Shown here one piece after another: positions 23,989 through 42,329 of a stretch of DNA of 64,000 nt. The DNA is taken from assembly GCF_005503555.1 (NCBI RefSeq), contig NZ_SCNG01000009.1:1-64000 (forward strand). Direction: 5' to 3'. Position numbers and translations under genes: made by a program. Source of the stretch: Rudaea sp. 3F27F6 (GTDB lineage Bacteria > Pseudomonadota > Gammaproteobacteria > Xanthomonadales > Rhodanobacteraceae). The notes beneath the pieces are model-generated. The model saw nothing but the letters and a program-made list of their open reading frames with translations, was not told the DNA's origin and ran no database searches. How positions within the stretch are numbered: the stretch's first letter is position 1; every line of letters begins with the position of its first letter.

Positions 23989-24494
23989 AGCGAGTGGCCG
24001 TGGCCTACACGATATCGCACCACGGCATCAACCAACGGCGGGTCTGTCGACTTTTGCGTCAGCATCGCAGCGCGCAAGCTTACGTGTCCTGCAGAGATCC
24101 ACGAACGGCATTACGACGACGAATGCACGAGATCGCCAAGACGCGTGTTCGCTACGGCTAGCGTCGCCTGCAAGTACTGTTGCGCCGCGAGGGTTGGCAG
24201 GCAGGCAAGCATTTGATCTATCGGCTGTACTCTGAGGAGTCGTTGCAACTGCGCAGCAAAACACCTTGCCGTCGGAAGATGGTCGTGGCCAGACGCGAAC
24301 GTTATATCGCCAAGCGACAGAACCAAGCGTGGTCAATGGGCTTCGTCTCGGACCAACTTGTCAACGGACAACGGATACGTGCTTTGACCGTGGTTGATGT
24401 GTTCACGCGAGAGGCGCTCGCCATCACCGTGGGCCGGAGCTTGCGTGCGGATCACGTCGTCGAGGTGTGCAATCGCTTGGTGGCAAAGTCGTAG
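23970..24494 (+). pseudogene. IS3 orfB transposase, inactivated
   Basis: Begins MARPALKRVAVAYT and keeps the HTH_21 region, but a TAG at 24159-24161 replaces the Tyr codon expected in RYG(Y)RRLQVLLRREGW. The first catalytic Asp of the DDE triad appears lost: WSMGFVSDQL where the family has WSMDFV. The frame ends at 24494 after CNRLVAKS, before the second Asp and the Glu. So it has three independent lesions. Confidence 0.8.
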
Positions 24495-26626: not shown

Positions 26627-27712
26627 CTACCCACGCTGCGCGAAACGGTAGTGCGTGACAAGCCATTCTCGCCCGCCTGAGTAGCCGAACAATTCTGCGC
26701 ATGCCATCCAGAACATGCGCCAGCGCTGAAACCACAGCGCGGCTGCGTCGCCGTAGACGCTTTGCAGAACGGACATGAGTTCGGCTCTGTGCGCGTCCTG
26801 GTTCTGCAGCCAGTGTTCGGCAGTACGCGCGTAATGGCGGCCGTTGATCAGCCAACGTCGTTCAAGAGAGAGATCGCGCTGGAACCAGAGCAACGTGTCC
26901 GCTGCCGGCATCAGGCCGCCGGTGAAGAAATGACGGCCCAACCAATTGTCCGCGCCATCGGTCGCGAACGGGTACATCAACAGACGATGGCAGAAGATGT
27001 GCACGAACAGTTTGCCGCTCGGAACCAGCCAGCTCGCAATGCGCGCGAGCAATATTTCGTAGTTGCGCATGTGTTCGAACATTTCGATCGAAATACAGCG
27101 ATCGAACTGCGCGCGCGGCAATTGCAGTTGATTCACGTCGCAGGTGATCACGCGGATATTGTCGAGTCCGCGTTCCCGGCAGCGCGCCAGGATGAATTCG
27201 CGTTGCGAGTTGGAATTCGATACGGCGGTAATGTGCGAATTCGGGAAATGTTCGCCGAGCCACAAGGTCAGCGAGCCCCAACCGCAGCCGAGTTCGAGTA
27301 TCTCCTGGCCGTCGACCAACTCGGCGCGCTCGGCGTAAAGCGCGAGCATCGCCAGCTCGGCCTCGGCGAGCGTTTCGTCGCCCCCGGCGTAGTAGCAGGC
27401 GGAGTATTTCAGGCGCGGCCCGAGACAGCGGCGAAAGAATTCCGCGGGCAATTCATAGTGCTGACGGTTTGCCGCATCGGTCTCGATCGCGACCGGACTG
27501 TCGCACAAGTTGTCGATTTCACGTTGGAACGCATCGGCAACGGCTTCCTCGCCGGCAGCCGTTTCCTTGGCCAGACGCGTGGCGCAGAGCCGGCGAATTC
27601 CCGCGCGTACGACCACGTCGGGCAGTAGGCCGCGCTCGGCGAGGCCAAGAAACCCGGGCGCTGGCCGATCAACGGGAAGCTCGGAGAGCGGAAGAGTCGT
27701 GTCGCGATTCAT
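26627..27712 (-). CDS. CFA-synthase-like SAM methyltransferase (second paralogue)
   Basis: A 361-residue methyltransferase of the cyclopropane-fatty-acid synthase superfamily, the last gene of the SigK-like lipid operon. It has motif I LELGCGWGSLTLWLGEHFP, the HYELPAEFFRRCLG substrate segment and ISIEMFEHMRNYE. It lacks the usual C-terminal YCEGGF-type block found in the first paralogue, so it may act on a different lipid or methylate without ring closure. The ATG overlaps the DUF1295 stop by 4 bases; the frame is open well upstream but overlaps that gene. Confidence 0.82.
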   Translation of the reverse strand: MNRDTTLPLSELPVDRPAPGFLGLAERGLLPDVVVRAGIRRLCATRLAKETAAGEEAVADAFQREIDNLCDSPVAIETDAANRQHYELPAEFFRRCLGPRLKYSACYYAGGDETLAEAELAMLALYAERAELVDGQEILELGCGWGSLTLWLGEHFPNSHITAVSNSNSQREFILARCRERGLDNIRVITCDVNQLQLPRAQFDRCISIEMFEHMRNYEILLARIASWLVPSGKLFVHIFCHRLLMYPFATDGADNWLGRHFFTGGLMPAADTLLWFQRDLSLERRWLINGRHYARTAEHWLQNQDAHRAELMSVLQSVYGDAAALWFQRWRMFWMACAELFGYSGGREWLVTHYRFAQRG

Positions 27713-28482
27713 CGTCGATTCCGTGGAAACCAAGGGATCAATATCGGCGTCGTGCGTTGATACGCGCGATAGGCGTCTCCGCGCGTGCGCAGTGCCTGTG
27801 CTTCGGTGAACGGAATGCCGCTCAGCCAGCGCAGAAAAACGTACATCACGATCGGCCCGAGCCAGCTCAGCGCTGCGCCACCAGCGAGGGCGACGTAGGT
27901 GAACCAGTGCAGCCATTCGAAGAAATAGTTCGGATGCCGCGAGTAGCGCCAGAGCCCGACCTGACAGACTCGGCCTTTGTTGCTCGCGTTGCTGCGGAAA
28001 CGGGCAAGCTGGCGATCCGCCATCGTCTCGCCGACGACGGCGAGTAGCCAGACCGCTGCCGCGGTCACGAGCCATGGCGCGGACGGTTCGCGTGCGGCAT
28101 TGGCCGCGGACAAGAACGGCACCGCGAACAGCGCGATGAGCAGCGCCTGGAATTGGAAGAACGCGAACCATTTGCGCTGATCGTCGCCCCATAGGGCACG
28201 CAAGCTGGCGTAACGACCGTCTTCCGCTTCCCGGCTCACGCGCCGCCACAGATGCAGAGCCAGGCGCAGTCCCCACAGACCGCCGAACAGCGCAAGCAGC
28301 AGGCGCGGCCATAGCGCGCCACGGCCGAGCACGGCAAGAAGCATCGCCGCGCTGCCTACGCCGCCGGCCCAGATCACATCGACGATGCCGGCATTGCGCG
28401 CGTGACGCTGATGCAGCCACGCGCCAGTCTGCGCCATCGCAGCGAACAGCCAAACCAACAGCAATTGGCCGCCGATGCTCAT
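27709..28482 (-). CDS. DUF1295 membrane protein (steroid 5-alpha-reductase-like)
   Basis: A 257-residue polytopic protein of the DUF1295/3-oxo-5-alpha-steroid-4-dehydrogenase-like family. Several helices lead to the C-terminal signature LWRYSRHPNYFFEWLHWFTY and GDAYRAYQRTTP. The family probably reduces or isomerises lipid double bonds; a member (Rv0446c) sits in the mycobacterial sigK locus. Both ends overlap neighbours by ATGA. Confidence 0.85.
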   Translation of the reverse strand: MSIGGQLLLVWLFAAMAQTGAWLHQRHARNAGIVDVIWAGGVGSAAMLLAVLGRGALWPRLLLALFGGLWGLRLALHLWRRVSREAEDGRYASLRALWGDDQRKWFAFFQFQALLIALFAVPFLSAANAAREPSAPWLVTAAAVWLLAVVGETMADRQLARFRSNASNKGRVCQVGLWRYSRHPNYFFEWLHWFTYVALAGGAALSWLGPIVMYVFLRWLSGIPFTEAQALRTRGDAYRAYQRTTPILIPWFPRNRR

Positions 28483-29015
28483 CGGTGTACTTCCGTTTCC
28501 GCGCTGTGTGCTTGCATCGGCGCACCGGCAAACAGCGTCATCGCACCTGCCCATGCAACGGAGAGTGCAAGCAGCCCCGTCCATCGAGGTTCGCCGAAGG
28601 CAACCGCGCCAAACCCGCGCGCCGCCGCCGAGTAGGCGAGAGGCGCCCCGATCGCGCCAAGCAGAGCTGCCGGCAGCGGGCGATTGCGCAAGAAGGCGAG
28701 CGAGTGATTGACGGTCAACGCGAATGCGGCCCAGATTGCCAATATCCACGCCGGCGCGCCGAGGGCCGGATACGGCGAGGCATAGCGCAGCAACCCGGTC
28801 GCCGCGAGGCTGCCATCGATAACGATGCCGAGGCCGATCGCGAGCAACAGCGTGCGCGCGTCCGCTGAGCGATCGCGTGAGACGAGCATCTGTCCCGCGA
28901 CGAAGAACAAGGCTGCGCCGACCCCCATCCAGGGCCGCGCCGTTGCCGCACCATACACGGCGGCGAACCAAACCAGTTGATAGCCGGCGATGTTTAGCCA
29001 GCGTCCCATGCTCAT
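28479..29015 (-). CDS. DUF2878 membrane protein
   Basis: A 178-residue protein with about five to six membrane helices and the DUF2878 pattern (NIAGYQLVWFAAVYGA, AIGLGIVIDGSLAATGLLRY, LTVNHSLAFLR). Its function is unknown. Members recur in CFA/DUF1365/DUF1295 clusters, so a role in the same lipid pathway is inferred. It overlaps both neighbours by 4 bases. The start at 29015 gives MSMGRW and matches the coupled ATGA; an ATG two codons later is also possible. Confidence 0.8.
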   Translation of the reverse strand: MSMGRWLNIAGYQLVWFAAVYGAATARPWMGVGAALFFVAGQMLVSRDRSADARTLLLAIGLGIVIDGSLAATGLLRYASPYPALGAPAWILAIWAAFALTVNHSLAFLRNRPLPAALLGAIGAPLAYSAAARGFGAVAFGEPRWTGLLALSVAWAGAMTLFAGAPMQAHSAETEVHR

Positions 29016-30292
29016 GCCTCGAAGCACTTGAGTGCGGGCAGATACTCGGCGTCGCGGCAGCCCGGTTTGACCAACAGCAACTGCGCGACGCCGATCGAAC
29101 GCTCGCAGAAGCCGCCTTCGCAGTAGGCCAGATAGAACTCCCACAGACGGATGAAGCGTTCGTCGTAGCCCAAAGCACGCACTTCGGCGAGACGCGCGAG
29201 AAAGCGCTCGCGCCAAGCGCACAAGGTGAGCGCGTAAGAACTGCCGAAATCCTCGAGCTGAGCGAGAGCCAGGTCGCTGCTGCGCGCTTTGGCCGCGACG
29301 AGCGCGGCAATTGAAGGAATGAACGAGCCCGGAAAAATATGCCGCTTGATGAAGTCGACCGAGCGCAGCGCCTGCGTGTAGCGATGATCTTCGATCGTGA
29401 TCGATTGCACGAGCGCCTTCCCATCCGGTTCCAACAATGCGCCGATCTTTTGGAAGTAGCTGTCGAGCTGGCGCGCGCCGATCGCTTCGACCATCTCGAT
29501 GGACACGATCTTGTCGTAGCGGCCGCGCAGGTCGCGGTAATCGTCGAGCAGGACCGTGATTCGATCCTCCAACCCGGCGGCGACAATGCGTTCGCGAGTC
29601 AGATCGTATTGTTCGCGCGATATCGTCGTAGTGGTGATGTGACAGCCGTAGCGGGCTGCCGCATGCAGTGCGAATCCGCCCCAGCCCGAGCCGATCTCGA
29701 GCACGCGGTCGTTCGGACCCAAGCCGAGCTTGTCGCAGATGCGATCGAGTTTGCGCAGCGATGCTTGCTCCAGGGATTCCTTTGCATCGGCGAACAGGGC
29801 GGAGGAGTACATCAGGTCGGGCGAGAGAAACAGGCCGAATAATTCGTTGCCAAGGTCGTAGTGCGCGGCGATGTTGCGGCGTGCGCCGTGCCGCGTATTC
29901 GCGCGCAGCAGGTCGAGCGCACGCATGATCCATCCGCCGACCCGCGCCGGCCCGCGTTCCATTCCGTCGAGCAGGTCGCGATGGCGCAGCAGCAGACGTA
30001 CGAGGCCGACGAGATCGCTGCAGCGCCACCAGCCGTCGTAATACGCCTCGGCCGCGCCGACGCTGCCGTTCGCGGCGAGCGCTCGATAGAAGCGTGCGTC
30101 GACGATGACGATCTCGATGTCGGCAAGTCCAAGACTGGATTCGCCGAGTTCGACCGTTCCCTGCGCATCGACCACGCGCAGTCGGCCGTGCCGTAGCGCG
30201 CTGAGGCGACCGAGCAGACTTTTGCGCAGCATGCGTTCGATCGGACCCAACTCCTTCGGCATCGTTGCGAGGCGTTCGCTGATTTCGCTCAT
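29012..30292 (-). CDS. cyclopropane-fatty-acyl-phospholipid synthase family protein
   Basis: A 426-residue SAM-dependent enzyme that transfers a methyl(ene) group to double bonds of membrane lipid acyl chains. It has the N-terminal CFA domain, substrate block NIAAHYDLGNELFGLFL, motif I VLEIGSGWGGFALHAA, IVSIEMVEAIG, and the C-terminal YCEGGFCERSIGVAQLLLVKP block. Its place after FAD oxidoreductase and DUF1365 genes is that of ufaA1 in the mycobacterial sigK locus. Products could be cyclopropane, methyl-branched or furan fatty acids; which one cannot be read from sequence. Confidence 0.9.
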   Translation of the reverse strand: MSEISERLATMPKELGPIERMLRKSLLGRLSALRHGRLRVVDAQGTVELGESSLGLADIEIVIVDARFYRALAANGSVGAAEAYYDGWWRCSDLVGLVRLLLRHRDLLDGMERGPARVGGWIMRALDLLRANTRHGARRNIAAHYDLGNELFGLFLSPDLMYSSALFADAKESLEQASLRKLDRICDKLGLGPNDRVLEIGSGWGGFALHAAARYGCHITTTTISREQYDLTRERIVAAGLEDRITVLLDDYRDLRGRYDKIVSIEMVEAIGARQLDSYFQKIGALLEPDGKALVQSITIEDHRYTQALRSVDFIKRHIFPGSFIPSIAALVAAKARSSDLALAQLEDFGSSYALTLCAWRERFLARLAEVRALGYDERFIRLWEFYLAYCEGGFCERSIGVAQLLLVKPGCRDAEYLPALKCFEA

Positions 30293-31080
30293 GTCGGTTC
30301 TTCCGGCAAAGATGGATGCGCATAGATGGGATTACGCTTCAGCCACAGGCGCAGCGCCTGCCAGTGAATGGCCCCGAGTACCTGCAAGGTCATCGCCGGG
30401 TAGCGAATCAGTACGCGCGCCAGCGCGAGACCGTCGAGCGTACGTCGCCGCAGTGCCAGCGTCGCATCGAAGTCGCGCCGGTTGCGATCGAACACATCCA
30501 TGTGCACGCGCAGATCCTCGTCGGGCACGGTGAACGTCCAGGTATATTGTCTATCCAGCGGCAGGAACGGAGAGACGTGGAACGCCTTGTCGAAATCCCA
30601 GCGTAGAGAGCGCCCGTGCCTTTGTGCGACCGACGCGGGCAGCACGTAGGCATGACGTTCGCGCCACGGTGTATTGGTGATTTCGGCGACGATGCATTCG
30701 AGCGTCGTGCCGTCTTCCGCGTAGCAGTAGTAAAAACTCACCGGATTGAACACGTGCCCGCAATAGCGTAAATGCGTGAGCACGCGGATCGGTCCGCGCG
30801 GCGGTACGCTATTCGCTTCGGCGATGCGCTGGCGCACGGCATCGGCGAGCGACATCTCGGCGGGGCCAAGGTAGTCCGCGCGGCGGAACTCGGCGACATT
30901 GCGGCGTCGGCTCGACCAAAGCCAGCGCCCGGCGAAGACGCGGTCGATTTCATCGAGGTCGAGGTAAAGCTGGGCCATGCGATAGGCGAATGCATGCGCC
31001 GCTGGCGCATGGCGGCGATGGCGCACGACGCCCTCGTAGACGGCGCTCACGGTCGAGTGCGATGCGGGCGCGGCACTCAT
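30289..31080 (-). CDS. DUF1365 family protein
   Basis: A 263-residue protein of DUF1365, a family found almost always next to CFA synthases and FAD oxidoreductases. Family segments: VRHRRHAPAAHAFAYRMAQL near the start, RVLTHLRYCGHVFNPVSFYY and the C-terminal ALRLWLKRNPIYAHP. It probably takes part in unusual fatty-acid formation; the chemistry is not known to me. The ATG at 31080 overlaps the upstream stop by 4 bases. Confidence 0.88.
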   Translation of the reverse strand: MSAAPASHSTVSAVYEGVVRHRRHAPAAHAFAYRMAQLYLDLDEIDRVFAGRWLWSSRRRNVAEFRRADYLGPAEMSLADAVRQRIAEANSVPPRGPIRVLTHLRYCGHVFNPVSFYYCYAEDGTTLECIVAEITNTPWRERHAYVLPASVAQRHGRSLRWDFDKAFHVSPFLPLDRQYTWTFTVPDEDLRVHMDVFDRNRRDFDATLALRRRTLDGLALARVLIRYPAMTLQVLGAIHWQALRLWLKRNPIYAHPSLPEEPT

Positions 31081-32378
31081 GTAGGCACCCATTGCATACG
31101 CGGTACATCGACAGGTGCCCGCACCGCCATGCCGGCGCGCCAGCGAACGCCGAGCGCGGCGGCAACCTCGACGGCACTGCGCATCCCGTCTTCGTGAAAG
31201 CCCCATCCCCAATAGGCGCCGGCAAACCAAGTGTGCCGGCGGCCCTGGATTTCATCGCGTCGGTTCTGTGCGGCGACTGCGGCATGCGTATACAGCGGAT
31301 GCCGGTACGACATGCGCCGCAGGATTTTCTCGGGAGCGATCGCATCGGTGTCGTTGAGCGTGACCACGAAGGTCTGTGGCGACTGGATGCCTTGCAGCAG
31401 ATTCATGCAATAGCTCACCGTGCAAGCACGGCCGGGTTCGCGCGGCACGCTGGCGTTCCACGCCGACCAGGCCTTTTTCGAACGCGGCAGCAGCTTCGTG
31501 TCGGTGTGCAGCACGGTGTCGTTGGCCTGGTACTTGATGGCGCCGAGAATGTCGCGTTCGCGCGGGTCGGCATCGACGAGCAGGCCAAGCGCTTCATCAC
31601 TGTGGCAGGCGAGCACGATCTGATCGAAACGTTCCGATCCGTGGTGCGTGCGCACTTCGGCGCCTTTCTCGTTACGCACCACACGAAGCACGCGCGAGCA
31701 CAGCCGCACGTCGAGGCGCCAGAGTGCCTGCAGCGCTTCGACGTAGCGGCGCGAACCGCCCTCGACGACACGCCACTGCGGTCGCGCGTCGAAGGTCAGC
31801 ATGCGATGGTTGGCCATGAACTGAACGAGGTACCGCATCGGAAATTTGCGAATGGCGCGCGGCGGAGACGACCACAGCGCCGAGGCCATCGGCACGAGAT
31901 GATCGTCGCGGAACGCATCGCCGAGCCCGTGGATGGCTACGTAGTCTTCGAGCGTCGGACCTTCGCCTCTTTCGCCAGGCAGCGCCGCGGCGAGCCGATA
32001 GAAGCGGCTTATGTCGCGCAGCATGCCGAGGAAGCGTGGCGAGAGCAGGTTGCGTCGCTGGCAAAAAACCGCGTCGAGTCCGCACGTGCCGTATTCGAGC
32101 CCGCTCGTCTCGTTGCGCACGGAAAAGCTCATCGTGGTCGGTCGGGCGGCGACGCCGAGTTCATCGAACATGCGCGTCAGCAGCGGATAATTTTCGCGGT
32201 TGTGCACGATGAAACCGCTGTCGATGCGGTACTCGCCGTGCTCGTTCGCAATGTCGTGCGTGTGCGTGTGTCCGCCAAGGTAGTCGTTGGCTTCGAACAG
32301 CACGACCTCGTGCTCGCTTTGCAGCAGCCAGGCGCAGGCGAGCCCGGCGATGCCGGAACCGATGATGCCGATGCGCAT
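31077..32378 (-). CDS. NAD(P)/FAD-dependent oxidoreductase (amine-oxidase type)
   Basis: A 433-residue flavoprotein with an N-terminal Rossmann motif RIGIIGSGIAGLACAWLL and the GG-motif region LFEANDYLGGHTHTH, of the kind paired with DUF1365 and CFA enzymes (Rv0449c in the mycobacterial sigK locus). It may oxidise or desaturate the modified acyl chain. The chosen ATG lies one base from the desaturase stop (TGACATG). Seven codons of upstream open frame are inside that gene. Confidence 0.88.
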   Translation of the reverse strand: MRIGIIGSGIAGLACAWLLQSEHEVVLFEANDYLGGHTHTHDIANEHGEYRIDSGFIVHNRENYPLLTRMFDELGVAARPTTMSFSVRNETSGLEYGTCGLDAVFCQRRNLLSPRFLGMLRDISRFYRLAAALPGERGEGPTLEDYVAIHGLGDAFRDDHLVPMASALWSSPPRAIRKFPMRYLVQFMANHRMLTFDARPQWRVVEGGSRRYVEALQALWRLDVRLCSRVLRVVRNEKGAEVRTHHGSERFDQIVLACHSDEALGLLVDADPRERDILGAIKYQANDTVLHTDTKLLPRSKKAWSAWNASVPREPGRACTVSYCMNLLQGIQSPQTFVVTLNDTDAIAPEKILRRMSYRHPLYTHAAVAAQNRRDEIQGRRHTWFAGAYWGWGFHEDGMRSAVEVAAALGVRWRAGMAVRAPVDVPRMQWVPT

Positions 32379-32379
32379 G

Positions 32380-33357
32380 TCAGCCGCGCCTCTTCGCAAA
32401 CACCCAGGCCGGCACCGGTTTCAGGTCGCTGACCAGACCGCATACGGCGAGTGCGCGCAGTGCTATCCAGGTCAGGTCGAATTCCCACCAGCGGAAACCC
32501 TGGCGTGCGCTGCCCGGATAGAAATGATGGTTGTTGTGCCAGCCCTCGCCGAACGTAAGCAGGGCGAGCAGGGCATTGTTGCGGCTGTCGTCGCGCGTCG
32601 CGAAACGGCGTTTGCCGAAGCGATGGGCGAGCGAATTGATCGTCACGGTGACGTGGAACAACAGCGTGGTCGAGACGAAGAAACCCCATACGAGCATTTG
32701 CGCGCCGTCGGTGTGCAGGCCAGGAGCTACGCGAGCGAGCAGGGTGCCGGCCAAGTACAGCGTCAGCGCCAGCGCGCCCGGGACGACGACGTCATAGCGA
32801 TCGAGCCAGCGCAGTTCCGGGTAGCCGGCGAAATCCGGAATGCGTTGCCAATCCGTGCGGAACGCGCGCGGAGTGAGGAACCAGCCCATATGGCTCCAGA
32901 AAAATCCGCGTATTCCGGGCGAGTGCGGGTCCAGCGCCGTGTCGGCGTGGCGATGGTGATTGCGGTGATGGGCCGCCCACCAGAGCGGTCCGCGCTGCGC
33001 GCCGGATGCGCCGATCACGGCGAAGGCGAACTGAACGGCGCGCGATGCGCGAAAGGTACGGTGCGCGAAATAGCGGTGATAGAACGCCGTGATCGCGAAC
33101 ATGCGCAAGACATAGAGCGCGAGGGCGGTCCATGCCGCGATCGGCGAGACGCCGGTGAAGAAAATGCCGAGGCAGCCGATGTGCATGCCGATGAACGGCA
33201 CGGCGCGCAGCCAGTCGATGCGTTCGGCGGTCTCCTCGTCCTGCGCCGGCGCATTCGAGTCGAACCATCGGCGCAACGTGCGCAGCGGCGGTGCGGAAAA
33301 TGCTATCGCTCCCGCTTCCGGCGCTTGCGGCGCGGCGCGTTCGCAGGGATCGATCAT
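32380..33357 (-). CDS. acyl-lipid/acyl-CoA desaturase
   Basis: A 325-residue membrane-bound fatty-acid desaturase (delta-9 type). The three iron-binding His boxes are complete: HRYFAHR at 94-100, HHRNHH at 130-135 and HNNHH at 274-278, with four hydrophobic helices around them. It would supply the double bond that CFA-type enzymes modify, which makes sense as the first gene of this lipid operon. A SigK-type promoter motif lies 31 bases before the ATG. Confidence 0.92.
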   Translation of the reverse strand: MIDPCERAAPQAPEAGAIAFSAPPLRTLRRWFDSNAPAQDEETAERIDWLRAVPFIGMHIGCLGIFFTGVSPIAAWTALALYVLRMFAITAFYHRYFAHRTFRASRAVQFAFAVIGASGAQRGPLWWAAHHRNHHRHADTALDPHSPGIRGFFWSHMGWFLTPRAFRTDWQRIPDFAGYPELRWLDRYDVVVPGALALTLYLAGTLLARVAPGLHTDGAQMLVWGFFVSTTLLFHVTVTINSLAHRFGKRRFATRDDSRNNALLALLTFGEGWHNNHHFYPGSARQGFRWWEFDLTWIALRALAVCGLVSDLKPVPAWVFAKRRG

Positions 33358-33388: not shown

Positions 33389-33417
33389 TATACGAAGCGA
33401 ACGCACGGCCGGATGCA
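33389..33417 (-). promoter_or_regulatory. SigK-type ECF promoter of the lipid operon
   Basis: On the minus strand: TGCATCC, 16 bases, CGTATA. It is in the 79-base gap between rskA and the desaturase gene, 31 bases before the start codon. The same -35 and -10 with identical spacing occur before two other transcription units nearby. The mycobacterial SigK consensus, recalled as CCATCC-N16/17-CCGAAT, shares the CATCC core. Confidence 0.7.
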
Positions 33418-33436
33418 CAGACCCGCGCAGAAATCC

Positions 33437-34183
33437 CTAGATGGCCGAGATGCTGCCCTTAGCCACGATCGGCCCGCTCGGCGCGGCGTGCGGCATGCCG
33501 CTTTGCGGTTCGAGAGTGACCGCGAGCGTCGCGCCGGCAACGAGTTCTTTCTGCAGAGTGGGCGGCACCGCGATGGTATGCGCCTTGTCGTTGGACACAA
33601 GGCCGAGCGACAGAGGCGCCTTGCCGGCCGGGATGATCCAGAGTTCATCGACGCGGCCGTCGGCACCGAGCGAGTGCGGCACCGGCACCATCAGCAGTTT
33701 GCCGCGCGCAGGATCGATCGAAGCGATCCAGCCGGTCGAACCGTCGTCGCGGAGCAATACGGTGACCGGGCGCGCAGCCTGCTCCTCACTGGGGCTCGGT
33801 GTCGGCAGCGGTACCGGCGCGCGGCCTATGAAGAAGACCGCCAGCGCCGCCGCGGCGGCGAGTCCGGCCACGCCGCGCCAGAAGCCGACATTGCTCCAGA
33901 CATTCGGACGCGCGGCCTCAGCGGCCGGCCAGCCGAGGCGGCTGCAGATGCGCGGCCAGACATGTGCTGGCGGTTCGGCGGTAGCCGCATCGGTCGTCCA
34001 CGCGGCGAAATGATTTTCCCACTCGTCGACAAGACGGGCGAACGTGGGCTCGCCGGCGATTCGCGCCTGCGCGTGGCGGCGTTCGAATGCATCGAGAACG
34101 CCGAGCACATATTCGCCCGCGCGGATATCGTCGCTCGGCGGCGGGGCGGAATCGTCGTCGAATTGAGCCGGATTCGTACTCAT
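33437..34183 (-). CDS. rskA: RskA-type anti-sigma factor
   Basis: A 248-residue membrane anti-sigma factor. The N-terminal cytoplasmic part (IRAGEYVLGVLDAFERRHAQAR) binds the sigma factor, a membrane helix spans about 101-121, and the extracytoplasmic RskA domain runs from about 140 to the end (GTGT-like PAGKAPLSLGLVSND; VTLEPQSGMPHAAPSGPIVAKG). In mycobacteria RskA releases SigK under reducing or redox stress by regulated proteolysis. The gene overlaps the sigma gene by ATGA, as expected for a sigma/anti-sigma pair. Confidence 0.9.
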   Translation of the reverse strand: MSTNPAQFDDDSAPPPSDDIRAGEYVLGVLDAFERRHAQARIAGEPTFARLVDEWENHFAAWTTDAATAEPPAHVWPRICSRLGWPAAEAARPNVWSNVGFWRGVAGLAAAAALAVFFIGRAPVPLPTPSPSEEQAARPVTVLLRDDGSTGWIASIDPARGKLLMVPVPHSLGADGRVDELWIIPAGKAPLSLGLVSNDKAHTIAVPPTLQKELVAGATLAVTLEPQSGMPHAAPSGPIVAKGSISAI

Positions 34184-34758
34184 GATTCAAGGCACGCGCG
34201 CAGTTGCATCAGTCCGCGGCGAATCCAGCTCTTCACCGACCCGAGCGGCGCCTGCGCTCTTCGTGCCAGTTCCTCGTAGGTGGCGGCGTCGAAGAACGCG
34301 GTGCGGATCAACTTGCGCCGGCGTTCGTCGAGTTGGCGCATGCAGTCGTCGAGGCGTACGCGGTCGGTCGCCGCCTGTGCCGAATCGGATGTCGACATGC
34401 CTTCGTCCGCGACGGACTCCGCCAGATCGATGGAAACCGTCGTGCTCCGGCTCGGATTCGAGCGCAGCCGATCGATGGCGCGATGGCGCGCGATCGTACC
34501 GAGCCACGCGCTGGGACTCGCGCGCGCCGGATCGAACTGTATGGCCTTGTTCCAAATGGCGAGGAAAGCATCCTGCAAGGCTTCTTCGGCTTCGCCGCGG
34601 TCGGGAAGCACGCGCAGGCAGATGGCGAACAACATGCTGGACGTCGTTCGGTACAACGCTTCGAAGGCAGCTCGCTCGCCTGCGGCAACGCGGGCGAGCA
34701 GCGAGGCGACGTCGGCACGGGAATCGATCTCTGTGCGCACTTGAAGTATCTCTCCCAT
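34180..34758 (-). CDS. ECF sigma factor, SigK-like
   Basis: A 192-residue extracytoplasmic-function sigma factor with region 2 at about 30-100 (AFEALYRTTSSMLFAICLRV, EEALQDAFLAIW) and region 4 at about 135-188 (LIRTAFFDAATYEELARR, VKSWIRRGL). It probably controls the lipid operon and the genes sharing the TGCATCC motif. The open frame extends to a GTG at 34905 but the added residues look non-coding. ATG 34758 or 34761, or GTG 34740 with a good GGAGAG before it, are all possible starts. Confidence 0.9.
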   Translation of the reverse strand: MGEILQVRTEIDSRADVASLLARVAAGERAAFEALYRTTSSMLFAICLRVLPDRGEAEEALQDAFLAIWNKAIQFDPARASPSAWLGTIARHRAIDRLRSNPSRSTTVSIDLAESVADEGMSTSDSAQAATDRVRLDDCMRQLDERRRKLIRTAFFDAATYEELARRAQAPLGSVKSWIRRGLMQLRACLES

Positions 34759-34901
34759 CATCGAGGGGGTGGAGCCGTTCTCGCCGCGCCTCCGGTGCGC
34801 ATTGCGCCACCGTCTGTGCGGTAGCTTATGCCACAAGCGGCGAGAGCAATACAATTCACCCGCAATGCGGGGGATCGGATCGCTGGCGTATGTGACGGCA
34901 G

Positions 34902-35684
34902 TCACGGACGGCAGTGCCCGTTCAAGCTGAGCCGCGCGGCGGCGAGCGCCTCCTGTGGATCAACCGATGTATCGCGCCGCTGCGGCGGAAATACGATGCG
35001 CACATCGAGATTGCGCCCGTCGCTGCCGCGGATCGTGCCGATGCCAACAAACTCGTACAGGCGCCGATCGGTGCGGCTATAGCCCAAGGTCATCGACGGC
35101 GCGATCAGGCGGTACCACGCATTCAACTGCACGCGCAGATGACGGACGTCGCTATCTCCGGCGTCGATTTCGGCGATCGTTACCGGTACTGCCGCGTGTC
35201 TGCCGGGCACCACGATCGCCGCGTGCAGAGGCGATCGCGGCGTGATCGCATCCCAGTGCGAGCGCAGATAATCGTCGAAGCCGGCATCGACGACGTCGTC
35301 GACGCCGAGTTCGAGTTCGGCCTGCTTCGGCACCGCGTCGTCTCGTGTCTGGACGTAGACGACGCGGCGCGCGCCGCTGCCGTTCACGCCTTCGCGGTAG
35401 TCGAGACGGGCATCGTAGAAATCGAAATCGGGTGCCGCGTCGCGCGACGACACGGTCAACAGTTTGCGCGCGAACGGTGTGCCATCTGCGCAGCCATACA
35501 GCACGAGATGCCTGTCGAAGTCGCCGTCGCGATAGCGCCAATGCGTTTCCCGGTACAACACCGAACCGTCGGCGCGGGAATACGCGATGCCTTCATAGCG
35601 TTCGATCGGGTCAGCCGCAGCGGCGCCCCAAGCCATGGCGGCGGTCGCGCAAGCCAACATCAAACAAGCGATCCGTAATGGCAT
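34902..35684 (-). CDS. secreted protein of unknown function
   Basis: A 260-residue protein I do not recognise. The signal peptide MPLRIACLMLACATAAMAWG cleaves near AAAADP. The mature part has beta-rich repeats of YEGIAYSRADGSVLYRETHW and a C-terminal VRIVFPPQRRD. It has no membrane helix after the signal. ATG 35684 is preferred over a TTG at 35711 because the signal peptide then starts normally. It lies 143 bases before the sigma gene and carries its own copy of the SigK-type promoter motif 37 bases upstream, so it is probably a regulon member. Confidence 0.75.
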   Translation of the reverse strand: MPLRIACLMLACATAAMAWGAAAADPIERYEGIAYSRADGSVLYRETHWRYRDGDFDRHLVLYGCADGTPFARKLLTVSSRDAAPDFDFYDARLDYREGVNGSGARRVVYVQTRDDAVPKQAELELGVDDVVDAGFDDYLRSHWDAITPRSPLHAAIVVPGRHAAVPVTIAEIDAGDSDVRHLRVQLNAWYRLIAPSMTLGYSRTDRRLYEFVGIGTIRGSDGRNLDVRIVFPPQRRDTSVDPQEALAAARLSLNGHCRP

Positions 35685-35721
35685 AGACGAGGCGGCCGGG
35701 TTCCGATGCAAGACAGTCTGC

Positions 35722-35750
35722 TATACGGACGTTGGCGCGATTCGGATGCA
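35722..35750 (-). promoter_or_regulatory. SigK-type ECF promoter of the secreted-protein gene
   Basis: Minus strand: TGCATCC, 16 bases, CGTATAG, identical in both boxes and spacing to the motif before the desaturase gene. It ends 37 bases before the start codon. It lies in the 335-base divergent gap between the secreted-protein gene and the DUF4331 operon. Confidence 0.7.
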
Positions 35751-35946
35751 GCGTGCTTCGGTGTCCGCGACTTTGGGGGCATGGGAAATGTCGCCCGATT
35801 GGGCGCGATGGAGCTAGTTGCGGGCAATACCGGCCGCTGCCTGCAGGCAGCGCGCATCGGCTACGGCCATCGGCTTCCAAAGTCGAGCGCCATGGAAGCC
35901 ATTTGCCGATGGCGATACCCACGCTGCAGAAACATTTGCTTGCGCG

Positions 35947-35975
35947 TGCATCCAAGACCCGCTGCACGCCGTATG
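35947..35975 (+). promoter_or_regulatory. SigK-type ECF promoter of the DUF4331 operon
   Basis: Plus strand: TGCATCC, 16 bases, CGTATG, 44 bases before the DUF4331 start. Only the last base of the -10 box differs from the two minus-strand copies. Nothing else was recognised in the rest of the 335-base gap. Confidence 0.65.
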
Positions 35976-36019: not shown

Positions 36020-37513
36020 ATGCAACTACCTCAGAGACTGGCGCTCGGCGCTTCGTTGTGGCTGGTGCTGGCGGGCCTCGCCAGCGCGTCCAGCCACCGT
36101 GAAGCACCTTTCACGGCCGCACACCCCAAAATCGACGGAGCCGATTTCTACATGTTCCGAAGCTATGAGACGGGACGCGATGCCTTCGTCACGTTCATCG
36201 CGGACTACATACCGCTGCAGGATGCCTATGGCGGACCGAACTATTTCTCGATGGACCCGAATGCCCTCTACGAGATCGAAGTGGACAACCAGGGCGACGC
36301 GCACGAACACATCACTTACCAATTCCGCTTCACCAATACTTACAAGAACGTTGCTCTCAGTATCGGCGGCAAGAACATCCCGGTGCCGCTGGTAAATATC
36401 GGACCCTTCGGGCCCGGCGTAACCGACGGCGACGCCAACAAGAATCTCATCGAGACCTACACCGTCACCGTCGTCAACGGCGATCGCCGCAAAGGCACGG
36501 CCGCGCTCGCGACCAATCTGACCAGCGGCGGCACGAGCTTCCGCAAGCCGCTCGACAACATCGGCAATAAATCGGTGCCGAACTATGCGGCCTATGCCAA
36601 CAACCACATTTTCTCCATAGGCCTTCCAGGCTGCAAAACCGCAGGACGCGTGTTCGTCGGCCAGCGCAAGGATCCGTTTGCGGTAAACCTCGGAGAAATT
36701 TTCGATCTCGTGAACCTGAATCCGGTCGGGTCGCCGAGTTCGGCGCCGAATGCGATCGGAAACAAGAACGTCACCTCAATCGCACTCGAAGTACCCATCT
36801 CTTGCCTGACGAATGGCACCGATCCGGTGATCGGCGCGTGGACCACGGCAAGCCTGCGCCAGGGCACGGTTCTGAATCCGGCACCGGCAGGAGCGGTTGC
36901 CAGCGGAGGGCAGGGCAAGCCCGTCGAGTTGGTCGGCGGCGCCTGGACCCAGGTTTCGCGTCTCGGCATGCCGCTGGTCAACGAAGTGGTCATCGGTCTG
37001 CCGGACAAGGATCGCTTCAACGGCAGCCAGCCGAAGGACGACGCCCAATTTCTCAACTATGTGACCAATCCCTCGCTGCCGGTTCTGCTGCAAGTATTGT
37101 TCAACGTGCAGGCACCGAGCACGCCGCGCAACGATCTGGTTGCGGTTTTCCTGACTGGCGTTCCGGGCCTCAATCAGGCGATGACGGTCACGCCCTCGGA
37201 GATGCTGCGCCTCAACACATCGACCGCTCCGGTCGCCGCTTCCTCGCAAAACACACTCGGCGTACTTGGCAGCGACACCGCAGGCTTTCCGAACGGCCGC
37301 CGTCCCGGTGACGACGTCGTCGACATTTCCCTGCGCGTGGCGATGGGCGTGCTGCTGCCGGCCGCGCAGGCCCCTGCGGGGCAATTGCCCTACACAGACG
37401 GGACGCCAATTTCTTCGGCCGACTTCGCCAGCACCTTCCCCTACGTCAATGCGCCGCTGCCGGGTTCGCCGAACGGTGTCAACGGTGTGGCCACAACGGG
37501 AGGCTCGCCATGA
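36020..37513 (+). CDS. DUF4331 secreted protein
   Basis: A 497-residue exported protein of DUF4331, function unknown to me. The signal peptide MQLPQRLALGASLWLVLAGL leads to SSHREAPFTA, the family N-terminus, and GADFYMFRSYE, EHITYQFRFTN and FPNGRRPGDDVVDISLRVAM follow. GGGAG six bases before the ATG supports the start; earlier in-frame ATGs at 35993 and 36002 lack a signal-peptide logic. It heads an operon with a small secreted protein, a TPR protein and a HupE/UreJ-like protein, coupled by ATGA to the first. Confidence 0.88.
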   Translation: MQLPQRLALGASLWLVLAGLASASSHREAPFTAAHPKIDGADFYMFRSYETGRDAFVTFIADYIPLQDAYGGPNYFSMDPNALYEIEVDNQGDAHEHITYQFRFTNTYKNVALSIGGKNIPVPLVNIGPFGPGVTDGDANKNLIETYTVTVVNGDRRKGTAALATNLTSGGTSFRKPLDNIGNKSVPNYAAYANNHIFSIGLPGCKTAGRVFVGQRKDPFAVNLGEIFDLVNLNPVGSPSSAPNAIGNKNVTSIALEVPISCLTNGTDPVIGAWTTASLRQGTVLNPAPAGAVASGGQGKPVELVGGAWTQVSRLGMPLVNEVVIGLPDKDRFNGSQPKDDAQFLNYVTNPSLPVLLQVLFNVQAPSTPRNDLVAVFLTGVPGLNQAMTVTPSEMLRLNTSTAPVAASSQNTLGVLGSDTAGFPNGRRPGDDVVDISLRVAMGVLLPAAQAPAGQLPYTDGTPISSADFASTFPYVNAPLPGSPNGVNGVATTGGSP

Positions 37514-37806
37514 AACCGCGCAAATCTCTCCTAGCGGTTCTTGCAATGGCGTGCCTCGCATTGGCCTCCATAGAATCGCCTGCGCAATCAACTACTGCGG
37601 CCGCGCAATCGTCGGACCAGTCGTGTCCGCCAAAGAGCGACATATGGGGTTATTGCCTTCCCTATGAGTTCAGTACGTTCGTCTACAACTTGTTCCTACT
37701 TCAAACCAACGATACGGCCGAGCCTGCCGATGTGAACGACGTTTACATCGCCTCGAACTATAACGACGATCCCGACGGGTTCTATCGTGTCTTTTTGCTG
37801 CCGTAG
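37510..37806 (+). CDS. small secreted protein
   Basis: A 98-residue protein with a signal peptide (MKPRKSLLAVLAMACLALAS) and a short mature part with two cysteines (CPPKSDIWGYC) and an acidic Tyr-rich tail (NDDPDGFYRVFLLP). No family is recognised. It overlaps DUF4331 by 4 bases and the TPR gene by 20, so it is translated within the operon and is probably a periplasmic partner. Confidence 0.65.
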   Translation: MKPRKSLLAVLAMACLALASIESPAQSTTAAAQSSDQSCPPKSDIWGYCLPYEFSTFVYNLFLLQTNDTAEPADVNDVYIASNYNDDPDGFYRVFLLP

Positions 37807-38977
37807 CTACGGCGTCATCGCGGCGGCGCTTGCCGCCGCGATGGTTTGCTGGAGCGGCCAGGCCGATGCCGCACCGCGCGTACCGGCGAACGACAGCGTG
37901 GTAGTGGAACGCTTGCCTCCGGCGTTTCTCGCGCTGCGCCGATCGCCGCAGTGGAACGGTGGCGGCGAAACGAACGTGGCCGAGGCGCTCGCGGCTGCAC
38001 GCCGCTACATCGAAGTCGGCCAAACCTATTCCGACCCGCGTGCCTACGGCTACGCACAATCCGCCCTCGGCAAATGGTGGGATGCGGACCCGGCACCGAC
38101 CGAAGTGCTGGTCATGCGCGCGCGTATTTTGCAGTTCCGCCATCAATTCGCACCGGCGCTGCAGCAACTGGAAGCGGCGCTGCGTGTCGATCAGTTCGAT
38201 CCTGACGCGTGGCTGCTGTTCGCAAGCATCGCGCAAGTGCAGGGCGACGTGCGCGCGGCGCGCAGCGCTTGTCTGAAATTGATTCCGATCGCCGATCCCC
38301 TGCTCGGGGCAACCTGCGCAGCATCGACCGCGGCGCTGAGCGGCCACGACGACACCGCCGCACCATTGATCGAAAGTGCTTTGCGCGGCGCGAGCGCGGC
38401 GTCGGGCGCCGAGAAAGTATGGGCATGGACGACCCTTGCCGAGATGAATGCGCGCCTGGAAAAAAACGAAGCTGCCACCGCGGCATTCCGCGAGGCGCTG
38501 AAACTTTCTCCCGACGATGTCTACGCGCGCGCCGCGTTTGCCGATCTGCTGCTCGATACGGGGCAGGGCACCGCGGCAAGACAGATCCTCGGTGACGCGG
38601 CGCAGGCCGATGCCTTGTTGTTGCGCGCCGCGATCGCCGCGGAACGCACGCGTTCTGCGGACGCCGATGGTCTTCGCGCCGATCTCGCACAACGCTTCGC
38701 CGAAGCGCGCGCACGCGGAGATGAAACTCATCTGCGCGAGCAGGCGCGTTTCACCCTCGAAGTCGAACACGATCCTTCCCGCGCGCTGGAGCTTGCCGCG
38801 CGCAATTTCCGCGTTCAGCGCGAGCCGGCCGATGCGCGCATTCTTCTTGAAGCGGCCGCGGCAGTCGGCGACCGCGCAGCCGCACAGCCGGCGCTGGAAT
38901 GGCTGGCACGCACGGGCATAAATGCGCCACGACTGCAGCAGCTCGCTCTGGGTTTGAGCGGCGGTGCCGCGCCATGA
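37787..38977 (+). CDS. exported TPR-repeat protein
   Basis: A 396-residue protein with a signal peptide (ending near QADAAP) and helical TPR repeats through most of its length, for example QFAPALQQLEAALRVDQFDP and AFREALKLSPDDVYARAAFA. It likely works as a periplasmic scaffold. A GTG start inside the end of the preceding gene is used. It overlaps the HupE/UreJ gene by ATGA. Confidence 0.78.
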   Translation: MSFCCRSYGVIAAALAAAMVCWSGQADAAPRVPANDSVVVERLPPAFLALRRSPQWNGGGETNVAEALAAARRYIEVGQTYSDPRAYGYAQSALGKWWDADPAPTEVLVMRARILQFRHQFAPALQQLEAALRVDQFDPDAWLLFASIAQVQGDVRAARSACLKLIPIADPLLGATCAASTAALSGHDDTAAPLIESALRGASAASGAEKVWAWTTLAEMNARLEKNEAATAAFREALKLSPDDVYARAAFADLLLDTGQGTAARQILGDAAQADALLLRAAIAAERTRSADADGLRADLAQRFAEARARGDETHLREQARFTLEVEHDPSRALELAARNFRVQREPADARILLEAAAAVGDRAAAQPALEWLARTGINAPRLQQLALGLSGGAAP

Positions 38978-40107
38978 GGTTCTGCAGTCTGCTGATGTTG
39001 GGCCTGCTCGCTGCGCTCGCCGCTCCGTCCGCATGGGCGCACAAACCGAGCGACAGTTACTTGATAGTGCAGGCGGACTCGTCGAGCAAGGTTCTCGCCG
39101 CGCAGTGGGATATCGCTCTGCGCGATCTGGAGGTGGCATTGCAGCTCGACGCGAATCGGGACGGCGTCATTACCTGGGGCGAGGTGCGCACGCGCGAGGC
39201 CGACCTGTTCGCCTACGCATTCACGCACCTGCGCATCCAGGCCGACGGAAGCACTTGCCGCCTTGCGCCCGACGATCTGCTGATCGACGACCACAGCGAC
39301 GGTGCCTATGCCGTTCTGAAGTTCAAGGCCGATTGCGCCGCAGTGCCGCGATCGATCGATGTCGGCTATTCGCTGCTGTTCGATATCGATCCGTCGCATC
39401 GCGGATTGCTGCGCCTGGATGTCGACGGCAATTCGCGCAGCGCCGTGCTTTCGCCCGATCACGCGGTGCAGACCTTCGCCCTCGCGGAAACTTCCCGACT
39501 CGCCACATTTCTGCAGTTCGTCGAGGAAGGCATTCATCATATCTGGATCGGCTACGACCACATGCTGTTCCTGATTTCACTGCTGCTGCCTTCGGTACTG
39601 CTGCGGCGCAATGGCGAGTGGGTTCCGGTCGGAACCTTGCGCAGCGCACTGCTGAGCGTGCTTGCGATCGTGACCGCATTCACCGTGTCGCATTCGATCA
39701 CGCTGACGCTGTCTGCGCTCGGCGTGATCGGGTTGCCGTCGCGCCTGGTCGAATCGGGCATCGCGCTGTCGGTATTGCTTGCGGCGCTCAACAATATCTG
39801 GCCGCAGGTGACGCGCCGCGCATGGCTGCTCGCCTTCGGCTTCGGCCTCGTTCATGGATTCGGCTTCGCCAGTGTGCTTGCCGATCTCGGCCTGCCTCAA
39901 GGTGCGCTCGCGTGGTCGCTCGCCGGATTCAACATCGGCGTGGAAATCGGCCAGCTCAGCGTCGTGCTCGTGGTGGTGCCGGCGATATTCCTGTTGCGCG
40001 AACGCCGCTTCTATCGCCCGCTCGTACTCGTCAGCGGATCCTGCGTCATCGCGGCGGTTGCCGGCATCTGGCTTATGAGCCGTGCGCTCGGCTTCGGTCT
40101 CGGATAA
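38974..40107 (+). CDS. HupE/UreJ-like membrane protein
   Basis: A 377-residue protein. After a signal peptide ending AWA, about 150 residues of extracytoplasmic domain (HKPSDSYLIVQADSSSKVLA, with an EF-hand-like DANRDGVITWGE loop) precede six or so membrane helices of the HupE_UreJ_2 type. Conserved His clusters HHIWIGYDHMLFL and GLVHGFGFA could bind a metal. Related HupE/UreJ proteins carry nickel or cobalt; for this subfamily the substrate is not established. Confidence 0.82.
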   Translation: MRFCSLLMLGLLAALAAPSAWAHKPSDSYLIVQADSSSKVLAAQWDIALRDLEVALQLDANRDGVITWGEVRTREADLFAYAFTHLRIQADGSTCRLAPDDLLIDDHSDGAYAVLKFKADCAAVPRSIDVGYSLLFDIDPSHRGLLRLDVDGNSRSAVLSPDHAVQTFALAETSRLATFLQFVEEGIHHIWIGYDHMLFLISLLLPSVLLRRNGEWVPVGTLRSALLSVLAIVTAFTVSHSITLTLSALGVIGLPSRLVESGIALSVLLAALNNIWPQVTRRAWLLAFGFGLVHGFGFASVLADLGLPQGALAWSLAGFNIGVEIGQLSVVLVVVPAIFLLRERRFYRPLVLVSGSCVIAAVAGIWLMSRALGFGLG

Positions 40108-40183
40108 GTATGGCTTTTGCGGTTCAACGAAAGCGACGCGGTGGTCCTGCCGCGCTTGGGAAAATCACCGTAGGGGCATGCGG

Positions 40184-42298
40184 ATGGGCAGTCGATTCGG
40201 TTTCTTCCTTGTCGCATCGATGTGCACGGGCATCCTTGGTCTGCCACGCAGCATAACGGCCGCGACCACGGAGAATGCAGCGGACACGCCGCCGGCCGAG
40301 CTCGCACAGGTCAATGTCGTCGGGCACTACGACAACGGTGTCGGAACTTCGGATGCCGCATCGCAAGGAGTCGTTCTCGGCCGGCTGCTGCAGGATATTC
40401 CCTTGCTCCGCCCGGGCGAAGCGCTCGAAACGATTCCGGGCCTCGTGGTGACGCAGCACTCGGGAGACGGCAAGGCCAATCAGTACTTCCTGCGTGGCTA
40501 CAACCTCGACCACGGCACCGACCTGGCCATCAGCGTGGACGGCGTGCCGGTCAATATGCCGACCAACGGCCACGGCCAGGGCTACGCCGATCTGAATTTT
40601 CTCATTCCTGAGCTGGTCGATCGCATCGACTACCGCAAAGGCCCGTACTTCGCCGAGAGCGGAGATTTTTCTTCTGCCGGTTCGGCGGACATCCACTATC
40701 GGAGCCGTCTCGAAGAAAACCTCTTCGATATCACCGTCGGCGAGTACGGCTATCGACGCATACTGGCCGCCGGATCGACACCGTTTGCGTTCTCTTCGTC
40801 GGCGCCGTCGTCGCCGGTTTTGCTCGGCGCCGTCGAGGTCATGCAGAGTGACGGTCCTTGGGCGCTGCCCGAAGGCATGCACAAGTTCAACGGCCTGCTG
40901 CGGCTCAGCGCGGGAGATGCCGCATACGGAGGCTCGGTCACCGCCCAGGCGTACGACGCGCATTGGCGCTCCACCGATCAAGTGCCGCTGGAACTGATCG
41001 AGAGCGGTGCGCTGTGTCGATTCTGCGCACTCGATCCCACCGACGGCGGCCGTTCGGCGCGGCAGATTCTTTCCGGCGAATGGCATCGCCAGGATCAAGA
41101 CGGCTACCTGCGCATTTCGTCCTATGCGGAACATTACCGGCTGCAGCTCTGGTCGAATTTCACCTACTACGAATCCGATCCCGTGCGCGGAGATCAATTC
41201 AATCAGCGCGACGCGCGCAATCTGTTCGGCGGGAAAATGGCCTGGGGCAAGGTGGGTACCTTGTTCGGAAAAGAGTCCACGACCGAGGTCGGAGCCCAAT
41301 TGCGGCACGACCAGATTCACGTCTCGCTGTTCGACACGCAGGCGCGAGTGCCGTTCGCCACGGTGAGCGACAACCTGGTCGGAGAAACCGAAGGCGCGAT
41401 CTACGTCCAGAACGCGACGACATGGAATCCGTGGCTGCGCACACTGGTCGGTCTGCGCGCCGATGCGATCGATCTTGACCTTACGTCGCAAACGTATTCG
41501 CCCAACAGCGGCAGCGTCTCGGACAGCCGGGTCTCGCCGAAACTGAGCTTCGTTCTCGGGCCGTGGGCAAAGACGGAATTCTTCATCAACGTCGGCAATG
41601 GTTTTCACAGCAACGATGCGCGCGGCGTGGTCGAACGGTTCGATGCGGCGACGGGCGATCCGAAGCCGCAAGCGCCGGCCCTGGTCGGCAGCTATGGCAA
41701 GGAGATCGGACTGCGCACCGAGATCGTGCCCGGCCTGCAAAGCTCATTGGCGCTGTGGACACTCAACAGCAGTTCCGAGCTGTTGTACTCGGCCGACTCG
41801 GGCGGCACCGAGATCAACGGCGCCAGCAAGCGTTACGGTGTCGAATGGAACAACCATTGGATCGTCAACGATTGGCTTTTGCTCGATGCCGACCTTGCCT
41901 GGACGCACGCGCGCTACGCCGACAAAAACGCCAACGGCGAGCTGGGCAATCACATCCCGAATGCGGTCGATCGCGTCGCCTCGGTCGGCGCGAGCGTTCA
42001 CCGAGGTGCTTGGTCGGGCGACATCAAATGGCGCTACATCGGAGGCTGTCCGCTGACGCAGGACGCAAGTCTGCGCGCGCCTTCGGCCATCGTGACCAAC
42101 CTGCGCGTGCAGCGCGAACTGAACGAACGGGCATCATTGTCGCTCGACGTGCTGAATCTGTTCGACCGACGCTATTTCGACATCGCCTACGGCCAGGACT
42201 ACCGCGTCTCCGCAAGCACCCCCTTGGTTGCCTCCGGCGTTACCGTGCACCCCGGCGAACCGAGGCAGTGGCGCGTCACGCTGCATATCAAACTATGA
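40184..42298 (+). CDS. TonB-dependent receptor
   Basis: A 704-residue outer-membrane receptor. It has a signal peptide (FGFFLVASMCTGILG), a plug domain (LLQDIPLLRPGEALETIPGL, YFLRGYNLDHGTDLAISVDG, PVNMPTNGHGQGYADLNFLI, PELVDRIDYRKGPYFAESGD) and a barrel whose last strands include SLDVLNLFDRRYFD and WRVTLHIKL. AGGGG seven bases before 40184 favours that ATG over the one two codons earlier. It follows the HupE/UreJ gene by 76 bases. It probably imports the same ligand, perhaps a metal complex. Confidence 0.9.
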   Translation: MGSRFGFFLVASMCTGILGLPRSITAATTENAADTPPAELAQVNVVGHYDNGVGTSDAASQGVVLGRLLQDIPLLRPGEALETIPGLVVTQHSGDGKANQYFLRGYNLDHGTDLAISVDGVPVNMPTNGHGQGYADLNFLIPELVDRIDYRKGPYFAESGDFSSAGSADIHYRSRLEENLFDITVGEYGYRRILAAGSTPFAFSSSAPSSPVLLGAVEVMQSDGPWALPEGMHKFNGLLRLSAGDAAYGGSVTAQAYDAHWRSTDQVPLELIESGALCRFCALDPTDGGRSARQILSGEWHRQDQDGYLRISSYAEHYRLQLWSNFTYYESDPVRGDQFNQRDARNLFGGKMAWGKVGTLFGKESTTEVGAQLRHDQIHVSLFDTQARVPFATVSDNLVGETEGAIYVQNATTWNPWLRTLVGLRADAIDLDLTSQTYSPNSGSVSDSRVSPKLSFVLGPWAKTEFFINVGNGFHSNDARGVVERFDAATGDPKPQAPALVGSYGKEIGLRTEIVPGLQSSLALWTLNSSSELLYSADSGGTEINGASKRYGVEWNNHWIVNDWLLLDADLAWTHARYADKNANGELGNHIPNAVDRVASVGASVHRGAWSGDIKWRYIGGCPLTQDASLRAPSAIVTNLRVQRELNERASLSLDVLNLFDRRYFDIAYGQDYRVSASTPLVASGVTVHPGEPRQWRVTLHIKL

Positions 42299-42329
42299 TT
42301 GCTGCCGACCCTCCACGGATGACCGCACC

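Follow-up and report, generated by a model that had tools for sequence, protein, structure and literature searches.

A SigK-like sigma factor with RskA as the probable centre of a small stress regulon over a lipid operon and a divergent DUF4331 operon in Rudaea sp. 3F27F6

Analysis of a 64,000-nucleotide stretch of Rudaea sp. 3F27F6 (contig NZ_SCNG01000009.1, positions 1 to 64,000; hereafter the window) points to a small stress regulon at a locus where a SigK-like extracytoplasmic function (ECF) sigma factor, an RskA-like anti-sigma factor and two divergent gene sets share one promoter word. The sigma gene (34180..34758, minus strand) encodes a protein in which Pfam detects sigma regions 2 and 4 only, as in an ECF factor of the SigK type, and its best match in the PDB is SigK (4nqw, E 1e-30). 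In the 4nqw alignment, Cys139 and Cys189 are equivalent to the SigK pair 133/183, a pair present in 84/84 aligned sigma factors. Against the NCBIfam SigK model NF007228 the protein scores 157.9 bits and does not reach the cut-off of 226, for which reason it is named SigK-like only. The next gene (33437..34183, minus) carries an RskA_C domain (PF10099, 68.1 bits against a cut-off of 29.4). On the other side of the sigma gene lies a secreted protein of unknown family (34902..35711, minus), with no match in Pfam or NCBIfam and no PDB relative at E 1 or better.

Along the minus strand, a promoter site precedes the genes for the secreted protein, sigma factor and RskA, and a second site precedes a lipid operon. 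This operon comprises a fatty acid desaturase (32380..33357, PF00487), an FAD amine oxidase-like protein (31077..32399, PF01593), a DUF1365 protein (30289..31080, PF07103, 277.9 bits), a cyclopropane/methyl-transferase (CMAS; 29012..30292, PF02353, 264.3 bits) that would be UfaM-like by role, DUF2878 (28479..29012, PF11086) and DUF1295 (27709..28482, PF06966) membrane proteins, and a second CFA-like methyltransferase (26627..27712; NCBIfam PRK11705, E 6e-35, below cut-off). The order from the first site to the desaturase was seen again in L068, L071, L072 and L075. By Pfam assignment, a methyltransferase, an FAD enzyme and DUF1365 stand in one unit, as the furan fatty acid pathway of UfaM, UfaD and UfaO requires, the amine oxidase-like protein being presumably UfaD-like by role. 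UfaO, which inserts the oxygen to form furan fatty acids, carries DUF1365 (PMC7380195), and in the portion of the literature covered the furan fatty acid genes are part of the core RpoE-ChrR regulon (PMC6852236), so that the lipid operon probably makes furan or cyclopropane lipids. On the plus strand, a third site is followed by a DUF4331 secreted protein (36020..37513, PF14224, 497.1 bits; no PDB relative at E 1 or better), a TPR protein (37787..38977), a HupE/UreJ-type membrane protein (38971..40107, HupE_UreJ_2, PF13795, 163.6 bits), a TonB-dependent receptor (40163..42298, PF00593 and PF07715) and a glutathione S-transferase (GST; 42321..43001), possibly the last gene of the unit. In L052 and L074, GST homologues are found close to the sigma or DUF4331 locus.

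As the first-pass annotation had claimed, the word TGCATCC-N16-CGTAT reads exactly at all three sites: before the lipid operon (33390..33417, minus; -35 element TGCATCC at 33411-33417, -10 element CGTAT at 33390-33394), before the secreted-protein gene (35723..35750, minus) and before the DUF4331 operon (35947..35974, plus). The downstream start codons lie at 33357, 35711 and 36020, at the distances given earlier, and the gene identities proposed around the sites (ECF sigma, RskA_C, lipid genes, DUF4331, HupE) were borne out by domain searches. An exact site is not present directly upstream of the sigma gene; the site before the secreted-protein gene probably also serves the sigma and anti-sigma genes by read-through. 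In this region, matches resembling terminators or sigma-70 promoters were no more numerous than in shuffles. In the whole genome (5,704,709 bases), TGCATCC-N16-CGTA has three matches, all at this locus, and the backward pattern has none. Spacings of N15-17 gave 8 matches against 2 backward, and YGCATCY-N16-CGTA gave 9 (the three sites and six others) against 3 backward, so that nothing beyond the three exact sites is clearly above chance. Within the window, 7 matches with up to two mismatches compare with a shuffled mean of 4.56, and because 21 of 100 shuffles reach 7, loose matches carry no meaning and only the exact sites stand out. The idea of a motif enriched genome-wide thus held only in that all three exact sites fall here. 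Counting exact sites, the genome's regulon comprises this locus alone, and regulons of such kind are tiny.

The promoter before the desaturase was followed through 147 genomes of the family, the window's included, of which 78 carry DUF1365, 47 have RskA_C over the cut-off and 38 have ChrR (TIGR02451) over the cut-off. These genomes are related, and Fisher values therefore overstate independence. The 78 DUF1365 genomes divide into 28 with RskA only, 25 with ChrR only, 13 with both and 12 with neither; the 69 without DUF1365 comprise 6 with RskA only, none with ChrR and 63 with neither. Conservation among relatives, as expected of a shared promoter by the first-pass annotation, was found in 63 of the 65 readable genomes (the window's included) that combine the lipid operon with a SigK-like/RskA or RpoE/ChrR pair. 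The gap was N16 in each, with no case at N14, N15, N17 or N18, and some 200 permuted words gave a mean of 0.005 before the desaturase in the same genomes. Since spacer identity among these sites is 34% against 28% expected, the word alone is conserved and not the spacer. An earlier count of 24/25 was biased, three loci (L081-L083) having been chosen for motif clusters, and the 78 DUF1365 genomes were used instead. By regulator, the site occurs in 25/25 genomes with ChrR only, 13/13 with both, 25/27 readable genomes with RskA only and 2/11 readable genomes with neither; outside the readable set are G114 (RskA only), whose desaturase is not in the DNA examined, and G111 (neither), which is too short. 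In the neither class, G016 and G118 have the site, G036 has CGCATCC and eight have none. The likely reason in G118 is that sub-threshold ends of RskA lie at contig ends, and in G016 that the best sigma match has a weak ChrR-like cupin behind it. In the latter genome (G016:C2:3696493-3697444) the SigK-like sigma (34%) precedes a short ChrR-like cupin, with sites present and no standard anti-sigma, and this may be a third type of regulator. Where the lipid operon is distant from RskA in RskA-only genomes, the site is kept in three of four (G012, G033, G048; not G091). The secreted-protein family, of which 12 members were aligned (the window, L038, L040, L044, L047, L053, L068, L071, L072, L075, L076, L081), travels with the sigma factor or the lipid operon; 7/12 homologues have the strict site upstream and 2 more the CGCATCC form.

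These counts bear on the possibility that the word is a promoter of ECF11 RpoE/ChrR, of singlet-oxygen type, read in this genome by another such sigma and not by the SigK-like one. Many lipid operons of relatives adjoin another ECF sigma gene, whose product shares 32-38% identity with that of the window. In genomes with a ChrR call by TIGR02451, the gene that comes after it encodes a protein showing HHLD and cupin features, and 13/15 such sigma genes beside lipid operons have their own upstream site. In Stenotrophomonas maltophilia, one RNA-seq run showed a sigma-dependent rise of 165- to 697-fold in a nine-gene cluster upon ChrR loss, the cluster being described, in the part of the report available, as a periplasmic protein, desaturase, FAD enzyme, hypothetical protein, CFA, two hypothetical proteins, CFA and lipocalin (PMC11832516). 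By that description, rather than by sequence, it fits the window lipid operon in gene kinds and order. RpoE-ChrR of Rhodobacter and Stenotrophomonas resembles the present system in driving lipid genes and, within the window's family, in being linked to the same TGCATCC-N16-CGTA, but its anti-sigma factor has zinc and cupin domains where the window has RskA, and it is without DUF4331 association. The motif as proof of SigK/RskA is ruled out by sites at lipid operons in genomes without RskA, and is restored for the window's genome only, by its lack of ChrR: this genome, 100% complete, has one RskA and no match to TIGR02451. It is only because ChrR is absent there that the SigK-like factor is the leading candidate. 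The retention of the site in nearly all readable RskA-only genomes and the association of DUF4331 units with RskA and not ChrR likewise speak against reading by an ECF11 sigma, which is considered unlikely. A tree built on the desaturase, FAD enzyme and CFA sequences of 52 genomes with a single regulator (a quick method, without bootstrap) requires at least 8 changes of regulator, 6 of them forced by starred branches. By this comparison, RskA-type and ChrR-type regulators have repeatedly taken each other's place at this lipid operon in relatives. The same promoter appears to serve two sensors, since ChrR-linked and RskA-linked pairs both sit at it, with only RskA present in the window's genome.

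The DUF4331 unit provides a second line of evidence. Within the family, the strict site precedes DUF4331 in 8/11 cases, several away from the sigma gene (L090 has CGCATCC, L088 none and L092 too little DNA). Where DUF4331 lies away from the sigma and RskA is elsewhere in the genome, there are four strict sites, one CGCATCC and one absence among six. Full-length DUF4331 associates with RskA (10/12 against 37/135, Fisher p 2e-4) but shows no such association with ChrR (3/12 against 35/135). Outside the family, the best 80 of 550 DUF4331 loci from species genomes, mostly of beta- and gammaproteobacteria, were analysed. Loci without a TGCATC form yielded, in a blind two-part word search, TGAAT-N18-CGTA in 35/50, with at most 4 in shuffles. 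The combined word TG[CA]ATC[CT]-N16-CGT[AT] stands before DUF4331 in 62/78 outside loci (27 C-type, 35 A-type), before TonB receptors in 13/18 (3 C-type, 10 A-type) and before sigma genes in 10/38 (all C-type, none A-type). Inner genes have it in 1/133 cases (TPR 1/68, HupE 0/65); RskA (0/39) and CFA (0/3) lack it, one FAD gene has it (1/1), and the backward pattern was not found. As the TGAATCC form came de novo from the same DUF4331 upstreams, the TonB units (10/18) and inner genes are the fairer test. TonB receptors have their own site in most relatives where they head a unit, as in L086 and L090. A sigma-RskA pair lies in 37/80 of the outside loci, within the DNA examined, and a ChrR-like protein, marginal, in 1/80. 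A reading in which the sigma factor controls the lipid operon, and DUF4331 has its site by chance or for an unrelated reason, would accord with the 16/78 outside units lacking a site and with a DUF4331-sigma link drawn from sequence; with 94 sites in 1.56 Mb of outside loci, however, the locus-wide rate predicts 0.011 per scanned interval where 62/78 units have the fixed-gap site, and the TonB units share the word, so that a coincidence is very improbable. Three DUF4331 units without the word (L134, L157, L101) show upstream TGATCGG and then CGTA-like letters, perhaps another sigma specificity.

The variable base of the -35 element has been compared with residue 177 in 84 sigma factors encoded next to RskA (the window, 46 family loci and 37 outside loci). 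This residue is Ser in 67, as in the window (Ser177), Thr in 16 and Ala in 1. Loci of the Ser class hold 89 TGCATCC and 4 TGAATCC sites, those of the Thr class 0 and 16, and that with Ala 1 and 0, with never G or T at that base. Judging by this covariation, the variable base follows residue 177, C going with Ser and A with Thr, with few exceptions, and the DUF4331 and TonB sites both conform, contrary to what chance matches would give. The phmmer ranges place residue 177 at T171 of SigW and, once a 3-residue tag is discounted, at S172 of sigma-E. These two residues bond base -34, according to the part of the source available (PMC6713349), a base which in the register used here is the third of TG[CA]ATCC; residue 177 would thus, by alignment, be at the contact position. 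The pairing differs in that Escherichia coli sigma-E and Bacillus subtilis SigW, as far as the source covers them, pair Ser with G, whereas window-type sigmas pair it with C; Thr goes with A in both. The sixteenth Thr sigma, L170, falls among Ser sigmas (with L102 and L099, starred). Its branch is very long and its sequence incomplete, so that a second origin of Thr is likely but not certain. A conventional repressor or activator binding site, in place of a promoter, is hardly credible as an account of the word, given the fixed strand, the fixed 16-base gap, a start codon usually some 30-50 bases away, two unequal halves of the -35/-10 kind and covariation with a sigma residue that contacts this base in solved complexes. 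In two Thr-sigma genomes (L252, L277), TGAATCC-N16-CGTA precedes genes whose products look like small c-type cytochromes, possible further regulon members.

The mycobacterial SigK promoter is CCATCC-N16/17-CCGAAT, with CGAAT at -10. The first-pass proposal of a SigK-like regulon is supported. Its sigma is SigK-like, not SigK proper, and adjoins an RskA, as in the SigK-RskA systems of mycobacteria and relatives (ECF18/ECF19), whose SigK is the nearest solved sigma and has the two conserved cysteines as well. Of the window's motif, the -35 is alike, but the -10 is CGTAT. In Mycobacterium, SigK responds to redox through cysteines 133 and 183, and an mpt83-sigK-rskA cassette is found in Gram-negatives as well, Yersinia among them, in the part of that work covered (PMC7509140). 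Fasciclin targets of SigK-RskA are present in the window's relatives, whereas none was seen at the window locus; fasciclin-domain secreted proteins stand directly behind TGCATCC-N16-CGTA near RskA in nine loci (L008, L037, L045, L051, L054, L060, L061, L066, L074). A DUF4331-HupE-TonB output was not met in that literature as far as covered, and in the library searched no paper dealt with DUF4331 or its set of TPR-HupE-TonB partners, nor did any result connect HupE with ECF18 or RpoT. Further units behind the site encode DUF3034 (9/10), an alpha/beta hydrolase (6/6) and a secreted family without Pfam match (4/4), rates that are biased because the units were chosen for following the motif; their loci are L036, L046, L057, L062, L067, L069 and L070; L052, L055, L062 and L082; and L006, L011, L051, L052 and L055, respectively. 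For lipocalin (2/45) and Lipoprotein_15 (3/8), the rates as regulon members do not hold up. Elsewhere in the window, a single 2827-aa open frame (43198-51681, minus) has RHS/YD-like repeats by eye, and frames close to where the lipid operon ends (23754-24494) resemble a transposase remnant by eye.

Taken together, the locus very probably constitutes a small self-contained stress regulon in which the SigK-like sigma and RskA govern the lipid operon, their own unit and the DUF4331 operon. The claim that the sigma drives both the lipid operon and the divergent DUF4331-HupE-TonB operon is strengthened by footprints within the family and beyond it, by sites kept when unlinked and by the residue-177 covariation, comparisons that also support the promoter word, its fixed spacing and its targets. 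Several observations weigh against this reading. As the comparison of ChrR-linked lipid operons indicates, the word is not private to SigK/RskA, the RpoE/ChrR pair being linked to the same promoter and operon in many relatives. There are 13 further, more distant ECF-like sigma matches in the window's genome, the next being 30% identical (E 1e-11), any of which could in principle read the word. Some N15-17 match occurs in 144/147 family genomes, so that mere presence of the motif in a family genome is uninformative. Among RskA-only genomes G065, with a Ser sigma, carries TGAATCC and G091 has no site, and the outside DUF4331 units lacking a site count here too. As to residue 177, L107 (Ser) has two A and one C, one family locus has more A than C, and 15 of the Thr sigmas form one Oxalobacteraceae clade, so that most Thr cases are one clade. 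The contrast is also weaker genome-wide: 15 Thr genomes give 43 TGAATCY (6 backward) and 25 TGCATCY (10 backward), and 20 other genomes 78 TGCATCY (21 backward) and 30 TGAATCY (5 backward).

In the proposed mechanism, the ECF sigma would be held by the membrane-bound RskA-like anti-sigma and would read promoters of the form TGCATCC-R-N15-CGTAT. Upon release, conceivably in response to redox or to a change at the membrane, it would transcribe the lipid operon, whose products would probably desaturate, methylate and oxidise membrane acyl chains, giving furan or cyclopropane types. Transcription of the secreted-protein gene and, by putative read-through, of the sigma and RskA genes would provide positive feedback. 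The divergent DUF4331-TPR-HupE-TonB(-GST) operon would be activated as well, probably as an outer-membrane uptake module; from family names, it looks like envelope uptake, perhaps of a metal.

SigK/RskA and RpoE/ChrR, each with lipid genes, and the fasciclin cassettes are already known, and the promoter word itself is not claimed as new, as it may be in print as the Stenotrophomonas sigma-Ec box or in ECF classification work. It is moderately probable that TG[C/A]ATCC-N16-CGTAT is common to RskA- and ChrR-type systems that swap repeatedly over the lipid operon, that the RskA branch gained DUF4331-TPR-HupE-TonB across beta- and gammaproteobacteria, and that a Ser/Thr change switches the -35 base between C and A. 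The locus would supply the widespread DUF4331 and TPR-HupE-TonB set with a regulatory frame in which it could be tested for the first time. It may also offer a natural series of loci that keep promoter and operon but exchange the sensor, with a one-residue, one-base specificity switch open to laboratory test.

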